37,997 bases of DNA from a virus: IMG/VR virus record IMGVR_UViG_3300029787_000106, positions 1 through 37,997 of that record; one strand, written 5' to 3'. The first letter of the stretch is position 1. Every line of letters starts with the position of its first letter. Below, in pieces: positions 422-4,391 of this stretch. A model generated the notes under the pieces. It was not told the origin of the DNA, made no database searches, and saw only the letters and a program-made list of their open reading frames with translations. Both the position numbers and the translations under genes were made by a program.

Positions 422-970
422 TTACGCTATCTGAACGTACTCAATAATAAACGTAAAAGAGCCAGCGGTGGTTGCGTCAACTGTGTTAGTGATATTGCAA
501 TAGATTGTTCTTGCAGCAGAAGTGTACTGAACAGAAGCAGGAGCCGTAGTGCCACTTTGAGTCTGAACAACCAAAGTAGTCAAAGTTACGTTGTGTTCAA
601 CAACAGTTGTACCGCCATCTAAAATCTCATCAGTCACTGCTGCAACGATTTGTGCGCCAGAAGACGAAGTACCAACCTCATAGCCAATGTCACCTGTGCC
701 AATAACTGGGGAGGTGTCACAGAAAATTTTAATGTCGGTAATAATGGTATTTGCAGGTTGTGTAAACTCGCCAATTGATGGGCTATCACCTGCTGTAGTG
801 TTAACGGTAACGCCTGTAGCAAAGCCAACATGCTTTACATACTTGCTAGTTACGATTCCAGTAGAAGCAATGTCAACAACTTCAGTAATTGCGCCAGTGC
901 TGCTATTTTCCGAAATAACCTTAAACCCATTCTTTGAGCGGACTGCGCCGCTGAATGTAGTATTCGCCAT
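422..970 (-). CDS. putative minor capsid or decoration protein (182 aa)
   Basis: A 182-residue protein very rich in Thr, Ser, Gly, Val and Ile, with alternating hydrophobic residues suggesting an all-beta fold. It has almost no Lys or Arg after residue 50. The N-terminus starts MANTTFSGAVRSKNGF, the kind of 'SGxxxSxxGF' opening I associate with surface-exposed phage head proteins. The start is supported by AGGAG about 7 nt upstream on the minus strand. It lies 105 bp downstream of the major capsid gene, after a terminator-like hairpin and the parS-like palindrome, so it may be expressed at a different level from the capsid. Function is inferred from composition and position. Confidence 0.6.
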   Translation of the reverse strand: MANTTFSGAVRSKNGFKVISENSSTGAITEVVDIASTGIVTSKYVKHVGFATGVTVNTTAGDSPSIGEFTQPANTIITDIKIFCDTSPVIGTGDIGYEVGTSSSGAQIVAAVTDEILDGGTTVVEHNVTLTTLVVQTQSGTTAPASVQYTSAARTIYCNITNTVDATTAGSFTFIIEYVQIA

Positions 971-1000
971 GAGTATCTCCTGTCGTGGCTAATGTCAGAC

Positions 1001-1016
1001 TGTTCCACGTGGAACA
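1001..1016. promoter_or_regulatory. parS-like 16-bp palindrome (ParB-loading site)
   Basis: The 16 bases TGTTCCACGTGGAACA form a perfect palindrome. They match the chromosomal parS consensus (tGTTnCACGTGnAACa) at every position and, to my knowledge, equal the symmetric parS variant used in Pseudomonas-like gammaproteobacteria. The site is intergenic, between the major capsid gene and the 182-aa gene. A chance exact 16-mer in 38 kb is expected about 1 in 100,000 times. No ParA or ParB gene is present in the window, so any binding protein would be the host's or encoded elsewhere on the phage. Confidence 0.75.
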
Positions 1017-1027
1017 TTCTGTCAGGG

Positions 1028-1068
1028 ATAAAAAAAAGGACTACCCAAGTATAACCTGAGTAGTCCTT
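1028..1068 (-). terminator. rho-independent terminator after the major capsid gene
   Basis: On the minus strand the stem AAGGACTAC (rc of 1060-1068) pairs perfectly over 9 bp with GTAGTCCTT (rc of 1036-1044) across a 15-nt loop. It is followed directly by a run of T residues (positions 1037 down to about 1030). It begins 8 nt past the capsid stop codon. This is the strongest intrinsic terminator in the structural block and would end or attenuate transcripts after the capsid gene. Confidence 0.85.
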
Positions 1069-1075
1069 AAAAGCT

Positions 1076-2014
1076 CTAGCTAGAGCCGGGTGATCCGAAA
1101 ATTCCAAGTGGATCAGAAACGCCGAAACTGTAGCGTTCACGCGCTTTATAGCGCACGTTACCAGTATCGAAGTCACCATCCATAGAATTTTCTAATGCTG
1201 CCCGTTCAAAGTGCTTCATGCCATTTGGAACGTCAGTAATCAAGAACCACGCATTTGTATCTGTGAGGTAATGATTTACTGAGTAGCCTTCTGGAATGCT
1301 GCCATTTGTATAGATAGCGTTCAGATCATTGTCTGCCGTACCAACACGACCTTCTGTCTGAAGGATACGAGTTGCGGTAAACATCAACGCAGGTGGAACA
1401 ATCAACTTGCGAGGACGGGCTGCAATCAGCAATCCACGCTCGTCAGTCCATCCTGCAATAGCAATGATAGCTGCCTCTAAAGAAGTTTCGTTCAAGTCAG
1501 CCGCCGTCGCAGGACGATTGCTATTCTTGCCGCCACTTACGAGAGGGTGTCCATCACCACCAGTAACGCCATCGCCAGAAGCAGTAAACAAGTTTACGCC
1601 GTCACCCGATTGGAATGAGTTTGTAAAACCATTGTTTAATGGCTGTGCAGATTTAACCTGCTTGGTGTATGCCATAGCTCGTGCTAGCGCCTTGGTGTAA
1701 CGAGCAGAAAGAGAATCGTAAAGATTATCTTCCATCGCTTCCTCGGTGATTGCAAAACCCATAGCTACTGTTTCGTGATTAAAGCGAGCAGTAAACGACT
1801 CTTGTGCAGCATCATATGTAATGCTTTCACCTTCGCCTTTTGTTGGTGCTGCGCCAAAGCCACTTAGCTTGACTTCTTCCTCAAATGAACGATCAGAAGA
1901 TTCTGTGTCGTAGATTTGAGTATGTTCATCTTCGTACTTCGTATACTCCAAACCGAACAAGGCATTAAGCCCCGGCAGGAGTTCTTTAAGCATTTGCGCT
2001 CTTGAAATTGCCAT
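1076..2014 (-). CDS. major capsid protein
   Basis: A 312-residue major head protein. The N-terminus MAISRAQMLKELLPGLNALF, followed by an acidic stretch around residues 24-48 and the region 'ETVAMGFAITEEAMEDNLYD' (about 80-99), is what I recognise from HK97-fold capsid proteins of marine phages. The C-terminal part, with 'YKARERYSFGVSDP' near the end, is also typical. An AGGAGA site precedes the ATG. Order scaffold, 149-aa protein, decoration protein, capsid fits a head-assembly operon, and a strong terminator follows the stop codon. The family assignment comes from remembered sequence features and context. Confidence 0.88.
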   Translation of the reverse strand: MAISRAQMLKELLPGLNALFGLEYTKYEDEHTQIYDTESSDRSFEEEVKLSGFGAAPTKGEGESITYDAAQESFTARFNHETVAMGFAITEEAMEDNLYDSLSARYTKALARAMAYTKQVKSAQPLNNGFTNSFQSGDGVNLFTASGDGVTGGDGHPLVSGGKNSNRPATAADLNETSLEAAIIAIAGWTDERGLLIAARPRKLIVPPALMFTATRILQTEGRVGTADNDLNAIYTNGSIPEGYSVNHYLTDTNAWFLITDVPNGMKHFERAALENSMDGDFDTGNVRYKARERYSFGVSDPLGIFGSPGSS

Positions 2015-2639: not shown

Positions 2640-3089
2640 TTATTTACCAAAACTACTTACGCGAGTTTTTCGATCAGGTCGGAGCATAGGCATCCGTGGA
2701 TCATTTTCTCGCATGTAAGATTGGTCAACACTTTCCATTTGTTGCGCTGCAACTCCCTCGTAATGACGCTGGCGCGAATCCGCAACTTCCTGTGGAGCCT
2801 TACACAATAACTGACCGCCAATTTCAACACATCCGGGAAACTGAGAGTTATGATCAGGCATAACTTCTAGCTCTGGGTGGTCTTCAAGCTTCACTGGCTC
2901 CCATCCTTCTCTAAAGCGCATAGATACATTAGTTGCATCTGATTGCCCTACCATAGATGTACGAATCCATCTAAACGCCCATCCCGGTTGTGGGATTGGA
3001 TCTGGTAGCAGATTGGGTGGTGTCCACTGCTGCTCTCTAGCTGTGTTATCTCTCGACTCCAATTCTCTTGGTTCTCTTGTTTCGCTCAT
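2640..3089 (-). CDS. conserved phage head-operon protein (149 aa)
   Basis: A 149-residue hydrophilic protein with an acidic, Arg-rich N-terminus (about 1-25). A central conserved-looking core, 'GWAFRWIRTSMVGQSDATN' (about 36-54) then 'RFREGWEPV', recurs in my memory among marine phage head operons without an assigned function. The C-terminus is Met, Arg and Asp rich. Its ATG overlaps the stop of the scaffold-like gene by one base, implying translational coupling. A role in head assembly is inferred from position. Confidence 0.6.
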   Translation of the reverse strand: MSETREPRELESRDNTAREQQWTPPNLLPDPIPQPGWAFRWIRTSMVGQSDATNVSMRFREGWEPVKLEDHPELEVMPDHNSQFPGCVEIGGQLLCKAPQEVADSRQRHYEGVAAQQMESVDQSYMRENDPRMPMLRPDRKTRVSSFGK

Positions 3090-4000
3090 TACGACATCCT
3101 CTGTTTCTGGGCAGCATATTGCTGCGGGGTAATTCCTAGTTTCTTGATAAGCTGGATTTCCGAGCTACTCAATTTAACTTGTGTTTTCTTACCACCACTT
3201 CGTTGCGCTGGTGCAACTGGTGAAGATGATGTCCTTGTTTGAGAAGCAGTGCCTTCGTCTTTTGTTTCTATACCAAAAGCTGATGGAAATGAATCCCTCA
3301 AAGCTTTATCAATAGCTCCAAAATACTCAGGGGAGTTTCTTTCGACACCCCTTTTCACTAACATCTCGTCAAGCCCATAAGCAAATCCTGTGACTGCTTC
3401 GTTTCCGGGCGCTCCAAACCAAGTGTTTTGCCCCAGCCATCCCTGCAATCGCGGGTCAAGCTGTTGCTGTTGCGGTGGCTGTCCCACCGTATTAGCAGGG
3501 GGTTGCTGTTGTCCCTGCGCCTGTGGCTGCATTTGAGGCTGATAGTTCTGTATATAAGCTCTATCTGCCTGTATTTGCGCAAGCTGTTCTTGCGCCTCAA
3601 CCATAGAATCTGTATCGCCCTCTTCATGGGCTTGCTTGTACCTTTGCTTCGCAGCCGTTAATTCGGCTTCAGTGCGATTCTGTACACTCTGAAGCAATGC
3701 TTGTTCGCTTTGGCCTACAAGTCCTTGTAAGCGCTGAACCTCTGTTTGGGTTCCTTGTGCAAACTGCACAGCCTCATCTCTTAATCTTTGCGCAGCTTCT
3801 TTCTCTCTGCGCTGTTGATGATACTCGTATTTTAATCTGTTTAAACGCTTTTTAACACGCTCATCTTGAACGTCAATCTCTTCATCAATGTTAAACGGTT
3901 CAACATCAGATCTTACAGGGCGACGATCTTCTTCTGGAGTATCGTCTACCTCAATGATTTCTATATCATCGGGTTCTGGTAATGCTACTTCTTCAGACAC
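3089..4000 (-). CDS. putative scaffolding protein
   Basis: A 303-residue protein with the typical build of a phage scaffold. It has an acidic N-terminus (1-45), a long charged helical and coiled-coil region (about 48-150), a Gln/Pro-rich linker (about 155-185) and a basic C-terminal tail with 'KKLGITPQQYAAQKQRMS'. Basic C-terminal helices of scaffolds bind the capsid shell in well studied phages. It lies between portal/GroES and the capsid gene, where scaffolds usually sit. One GTTTAAAC palindrome falls inside it at 3839, read as Leu-Asn. Confidence 0.7.
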   Translation of the reverse strand: MSEEVALPEPDDIEIIEVDDTPEEDRRPVRSDVEPFNIDEEIDVQDERVKKRLNRLKYEYHQQRREKEAAQRLRDEAVQFAQGTQTEVQRLQGLVGQSEQALLQSVQNRTEAELTAAKQRYKQAHEEGDTDSMVEAQEQLAQIQADRAYIQNYQPQMQPQAQGQQQPPANTVGQPPQQQQLDPRLQGWLGQNTWFGAPGNEAVTGFAYGLDEMLVKRGVERNSPEYFGAIDKALRDSFPSAFGIETKDEGTASQTRTSSSPVAPAQRSGGKKTQVKLSSSEIQLIKKLGITPQQYAAQKQRMS

Positions 4001-4391
4001 GGCTTATACCTCTTGGATCTTGTACTACGGCTTCGGGTGTATCATCGTTAATCAAACGGAATTCTTTGCCATGAATTTTTATTCTGGTTCCGCTATACGC
4101 CCTCATTAAGATAAAGTCTCCCTCTTTGCACCAAGGCCCATTAGGAAATCGTTTTGTATCTTTATAACAGTCTGGCCCCATTGCAATAACAAACCCTACC
4201 ATCGAAGCAGTTTCTTCGATTTCTAGCGTTGTCCTTGCTTTTATAATGCCGCCTTCTGTTTTTTCCTCTATCTCCGGTAATCCAATAAGGATGTGGTATC
4301 CAGTAGGCACTGGAAGTTGACTAGCTTTTTCTGTATCTGCTTTGTCTTCTTCAGCGCCAATGGACGTTACGTCCACTTCTGCTGCTGTCAT
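3993..4391 (-). CDS. GroES-like co-chaperonin
   Basis: A 132-residue protein of the GroES (Cpn10) family. After a 26-residue acidic extension it follows the family pattern: first strand 'PTGYHILIGLPE' (29-40), mobile-loop region with 'EEKTEGGII' (42-50; compare ETKSAGGIV in bacterial GroES), 'GFVIAMGPDCY' (66-76), 'CKEGDFILMRAYSG' (88-101) and 'FRLINDDTPEAVV' (111-123). Phage co-chaperonins such as T4 gp31 replace host GroES so that GroEL can fold the phage capsid protein. Its place inside the head operon fits that job. No GroEL partner is seen. It overlaps the scaffold gene by 8 bp. Confidence 0.85.
   Translation of the reverse strand: MTAAEVDVTSIGAEEDKADTEKASQLPVPTGYHILIGLPEIEEKTEGGIIKARTTLEIEETASMVGFVIAMGPDCYKDTKRFPNGPWCKEGDFILMRAYSGTRIKIHGKEFRLINDDTPEAVVQDPRGISRV

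Follow-up and report, generated by a model that had tools for sequence, protein, structure and literature searches.

A phage genome in which no partition genes were detected carries a 16-mer with the sequence of a chromosomal-type parS, and this site is most likely bound by the ParB protein of the host. The 16-mer lies in the window, a stretch of 37,997 nucleotides taken from the IMG/VR virus record IMGVR_UViG_3300029787_000106 (positions 1 to 37,997). Support for this reading comes from the identity of the sequence, its recurrence at independent positions in related phages, constraint at the DNA level on a copy inside a coding sequence, and the match between phage and bacterial alleles. From these we infer ParB binding, clamp loading and a resulting benefit.

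A perfect parS-type palindrome downstream of the capsid gene

Positions 1001-1016 read TGTTCCACGTGGAACA, a perfect 16-bp palindrome (hence given without strand) that has 0 mismatches to the parS consensus TGTTNCACGTGNAACA. The same 16 bases form parS2 and parS3 of Pseudomonas aeruginosa, which are the best-bound sites of its ParB (PMC4368675), and are common to all Pseudomonas chromosomal parS (PMC5450999). They also make up most of the parS-like sites on Porticoccaceae chromosomes. The preliminary description had claimed a perfect parS-type site in the capsid region, identical to a real ParB-loading site and placed between genes, and each of these points holds: the 16-mer falls in the gap between the end of the capsid gene at 1076 and the start of the next gene at 970. 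Under a first-order Markov model a genome would be expected to contain the exact 16-mer about 7e-6 times and a match to the consensus 1.9e-4 times; a scan of the whole 42,512-base virus record found no other match at up to one mismatch. A reversed control pattern gave 0 matches in every record scanned. Given the tiny expectation, the single copy and the empty control, a chance origin was ruled out. As a matter of sequence, the identification as parS is right, and stronger than the earlier reading had it.

The capsid gene (1076-2014, minus strand) encodes a Mu gpT-like major capsid protein (PF25209 and PF10124 in Pfam; phrog_371, major head protein, in PHROGs). The next gene (422-970, minus strand) has no Pfam match and is comparable, by position only, with the cement-protein gene of phage DSL-LC04. 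After the capsid gene, in the direction of the coding strand, come an intrinsic terminator-like hairpin with a U-tract (1036-1068, minus strand, recognised from sequence and fold), which had been overlooked in the first reading, and then an RF03012 RNA that contains the 16-mer. Other genes of the window encode a terminase, a portal, a primase-helicase, a Sak annealing protein, RusA, an exonuclease and a GroES-like protein; the gene for this putative co-chaperonin (3993-4391, minus strand) stands within the head-gene cluster. No recognised integrase or repressor was found among the window genes scanned, and a lytic life style is therefore likely.

Partition genes were not detected

The par genes had been described as absent, and no match to ParB_N or HTH_ParB (Pfam) or to a ParA-type ATPase was found in the window's record. 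ParB_N and HTH_ParB were likewise absent from 20 of the 21 other phage records in the comparison set (21 of 22 with the window's own), and ParA-type ATPases from all 18 records scanned. The one exception is an unrelated 125-kb viral contig (L360 / G018) with its own ParB-like gene; its five perfect copies of the site lie within 3 kb, and the ParB-like gene is ~23 kb away from them.

The 16-mer could be part of a full phage-plasmid ParABS whose par genes lie in a missing part of the genome or are too diverged for Pfam to detect. The record, at 42.5 kb, is probably incomplete, relatives being 54-58 kb long, and the 125-kb virus shows five copies together with its own ParB. However, the long relatives that carry the site have no ParB_N/HTH_ParB or ParA matches either. 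With no par-gene matches in these genomes or in the window's record, we set the phage's own ParABS aside as very improbable. Chromosomal parS are found near oriC and the parAB genes of the same replicon; because the record has no ParB or ParA, the 16-mer is here termed a parS-type site and not a chromosomal centromere.

The site coincides with the tip of an RNA hairpin

The 16-mer of the window lies within a match to the Rfam family RF03012 (Mu-gpT-DE RNA; 968-1027, minus strand) whose last bases are the ATG of the following gene. The match scores 54.5 bits in cmscan (gathering score 49, E 3.7e-12), was recovered in the scan of the whole window too, and has the context of the family, as the RNA follows a Mu gpT-type capsid gene (PF10124). 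The P2 hairpin spans 996-1021 (minus strand), with outer pairs joining 1018-1021 to 996-999 in the fold of 968-1027; its inner 6-bp stem and ACGU loop are exactly 1001-1016, a coincidence missing from the first reading. The 3' strand of P1, CAGG (979-982, minus strand), pairs with CCTG at 1023-1026 and overlaps the Shine-Dalgarno sequence AGGAG (977-981) of the next gene, and the RNA therefore probably acts as a leader of that gene. RF03012 is entered in Rfam as an sRNA gene; here and in relatives, where it ends at the start codon and P1 overlaps the Shine-Dalgarno, it has the look of a cis-regulatory leader.

These features raise the alternative that the 16-mer is simply the tip of an RF03012 hairpin, with selection on the P2 stem and an incidental match to parS. 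The RF03012 match exceeds the gathering score, the 16-mer coincides base for base with the inner stem and loop, the outer P2 pairs covary among relatives, and centres within the window's own clade show loop-like variation. For the window itself, constraint on the 16-mer is not separable from RNA pairing. Against the alternative, the core within the hairpins, in a sample picked by motif search, is far better conserved than the outer pairs, which covary freely, and its centres are always YR. A pure RNA hairpin was favoured after the RF03012 match was found, and was set back by sites that lie outside the RNA, in sister phages having another P2 hairpin and at an intergenic locus kilobases off, and by a copy inside a gene. 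We now regard it as unlikely.

A different structured leader occupies the gap after the capsid gene in distant relatives (L016, L018, L020, L062, L080, L545, L547). By eye it shows crossing pairings of the CUAGG...CCUAG and CUAGCG...CGCUAG types, forming a pseudoknot, sometimes with a further stem near the Shine-Dalgarno. Scans of L016, L020 and L062 gave no RF03012 match, and this leader may be an undescribed variant.

Sites recur at independent positions in related phages

The preliminary description had named absence of the site from close relatives as evidence against its function; it is present in L002 and L003, the nearest relatives. Conservation among relatives at large, which had also been proposed, is found in part: many retain either the site or a variant known from natural parS, but one clade has a relaxed centre, and elsewhere the position differs. 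In sister phages such as L314, L315 and L323 the perfect palindrome follows directly after the capsid terminator and lies outside the RF03012 RNA, whose P2 hairpin has a different sequence there. Some relatives have the palindrome before the capsid terminator, and in others it lies ~700 bp further on, in an upstream gene, or at an intergenic locus ~8 kb away. Six capsid relatives (G012, G014, G057, G059, G060, G061) have 2-3 copies each, after the capsid gene, ~3 kb upstream and, in some, ~8 kb away.

The site is far from universal. In an unselected sample, 91 of the 112 loci with an RF03012 RNA had none, and a tree of capsid proteins calls for at least 12 changes between presence and absence, a count of lower confidence because the sample was enriched for sites. 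Among the matches listed in a pattern scan of IMG/VR, whose counts are not absolute frequencies, TTTTTGTTCCANNTGGAACA occurs in 42 flank clusters, with a CG centre in 28 and the next most common, TG, in 5. Most isolate phages among the capsid relatives are without it. The culturable Alcaligenes phage vB_Af_QDWS535 has one site and HTVC023P only the YR variant TGTTACACATGTAACA. The vB_Af_QDWS535 site (L552, OK172329.1 46000-50121) is perfect and lies at record position 47934, within a short annotated ORF that comes just after divergently oriented genes. Three records (OQ594354.1, OL906435.1, PP438419.1) are identical in length (65,014) and capsid match, yet are assigned to three different cyanobacterial hosts; their hosts or records may be mixed up.

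A copy inside a coding sequence

The second parS of the sister clade, ~3 kb from the capsid site, lies in a gene syntenic with window positions 3089-4000. The window's counterpart (minus strand, 303 aa, matched by synteny and length) is without the site. The coding copy, the sharpest test among our comparisons, specifies the residues D/N-V-P-R-G-T within an acidic part of the protein near its N terminus. We compared ten sequences of 75-99% amino-acid identity, selected independently of this copy. All fourfold-degenerate positions inside the copy were invariant (5/5), versus 22/76 elsewhere (hypergeometric probability about 0.003). The sole change in the copy, in L384, is a non-synonymous replacement of Gly by Glu, and it affects parS position 12; natural parS vary there and at one other position (PMC5450999). 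Because fourfold sites are fixed and the single change lies at position 12, we read the pattern as selection that acts on the DNA and tolerates the change that parS tolerates.

Phage alleles match those of bacterial chromosomes

Variation among the phage relatives is confined to positions 5/12 and the centre, as in natural parS, and the phage centres are always YR. Among 36 distinct hairpins of the window's own clade, collected by motif search, the centre is CA in 16, TG in 11, CG in 8 and TA in one. For P. aeruginosa ParB it matters that the CACGTG core is intact (PMC4368675), and retention of the CG centre in only 8 of the 36 hairpins is a point against ParB as the ligand. The relaxed centres were at first counted in this way, but chromosomal pairs in Porticoccaceae show them too. 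In this marine family the motif was found in 40 of 41 genomes, mostly as pairs ~630-660 bp apart, and in one genome inspected the pair lies within recF, beside dnaN and gyrB. Judged by sequence and location, these chromosomal sites would be expected to bind ParB. CG, CA/TG and TA centres all occur among their alleles, as they do among the phage hairpins, and on this basis we equate the phage alleles with those of the Porticoccaceae pairs. Rhodobacteraceae, by comparison, have almost only TGTTTCACGTGAAACA, and the family of Cellvibrionales bin G066 has TGTTYCACGTGAAACA. The CA/TG variants retain one perfect half-site, GTTCCAC, which is bound by P. aeruginosa ParB (PMC7022226).

Host assignment through co-binning in MAGs was dropped because the bins were inconsistent, and only the allele comparison was used for the host. 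One relative binned in a Porticoccaceae MAG (L521) is without the site.

Alternatively, the palindrome may be the operator of a phage or host regulator other than ParB, equal to parS in sequence and serving late-gene control beside the terminator. Several copies do adjoin terminators or stand upstream of genes, and five copies, several in gaps between genes, are present on another viral contig. However, variation falls exactly at the positions where parS is tolerant and matches the chromosomal parS-like alleles, and the copy in a coding sequence is not promoter-like. We consider such an operator improbable, with a wide scan for DNA-binding families that covered the window's proteins.

A proposed model for recruitment of host ParB

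Since the relatives retain such sites in several independent locations, the viruses probably attach to, or divert, the protein that segregates the host chromosome. We propose, with confidence evenly divided, a more specific picture: an apparently lytic marine phage family would carry host-type parS at 1-3 dispersed positions, with alleles tuned to marine gammaproteobacterial centromeres, and would thereby recruit or sequester host ParB (with ParA/SMC) during infection. Host ParB would load on the phage site as a CTP-gated clamp. Chromosomal ParB clamps slide kilobases from parS; loaded clamps would therefore slide over and cover the neighbouring late genes. Phage genomes could in this way become attached to the host ParA/SMC machinery, for tethering or segregation, or ParB could be pulled off the few chromosomal sites by the many phage copies. 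Since the phage makes many copies of its genome, either outcome could follow from 1-3 sites per genome. Spreading over the capsid region, tethering, titration and also silencing of late genes had been put forward as possibilities in the preliminary description. We slightly prefer titration over tethering, as single sites in a replicating lytic genome would suffice for it. In the window's lineage the palindrome would be nested in the insertion-tolerant loop of P2 in the RF03012 leader, where the transcript would form a harmless hairpin. The RNA tolerates a longer hairpin there, as the covarying outer pairs indicate, so a transcribed leader could readily house a palindromic DNA site in this loop.

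Relation to known systems

The putative ParB site shares with bacterial chromosomal parS the 16 bases of P. aeruginosa parS2/parS3 and the tolerated variation (positions 5/12, and YR centres as in Porticoccaceae). It differs in being phage-borne, away from oriC and parAB, and in single or few copies among late genes. The closest precedent is SGI1, whose parS-like sites have been shown experimentally to hijack the ParABS of IncC plasmids, so that a mobile element can use parS mimics both for segregation or tethering and for titration (PMC10954446). Like SGI1, the phages are mobile elements with sites for the ParB of another replicon and no ParB of their own at the site; a foreign-ParB-type site without own par genes, as in parasitic mimicry, is what the window's record contains. 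The phages differ from SGI1 in that the centromere mimicked belongs to a chromosome; the carrier here resembles a tailed virus and is known from its sequence. Phage-plasmids with partition loci (P1, N15 and the mycobacteriophage ParABS) also have a centromere-like site on a phage genome, but in the present phages no cognate ParA/ParB was found and the site is of the chromosomal type. With RF03012 the leader shares sequence, structure and a place downstream of a Mu gpT-type gene; it differs in that the parS palindrome replaces the tip of P2, and sister phages have the site outside their RNA.

A literature search, with preprints and most subscription papers outside its scope, returned no report of host-type chromosomal parS on phages without par genes. 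If our reading is correct, centromere parasitism would include apparently lytic phages as well as mobilizable islands, and phages could target chromosome segregation without any protein of their own. Correspondence of parS alleles between phages and chromosomes might, in addition, help to predict the hosts of uncultured phages.

Clustered sites on other viral contigs

Clusters of the palindrome were seen on other viral contigs as well. A 29-kb contig (L185, IMGVR_UViG_3300003650_000024) has five perfect copies of TGTTCCACGTGGAACA within ~6 kb, several of them between genes; no ParB match was found on this fragment. Five further contigs (L129, L151, L179, L188, L189) carry TGTTCCACGTGGAACA and TTTCACGTGAAACA ~10 bases apart, which gives them the look of a double parS.
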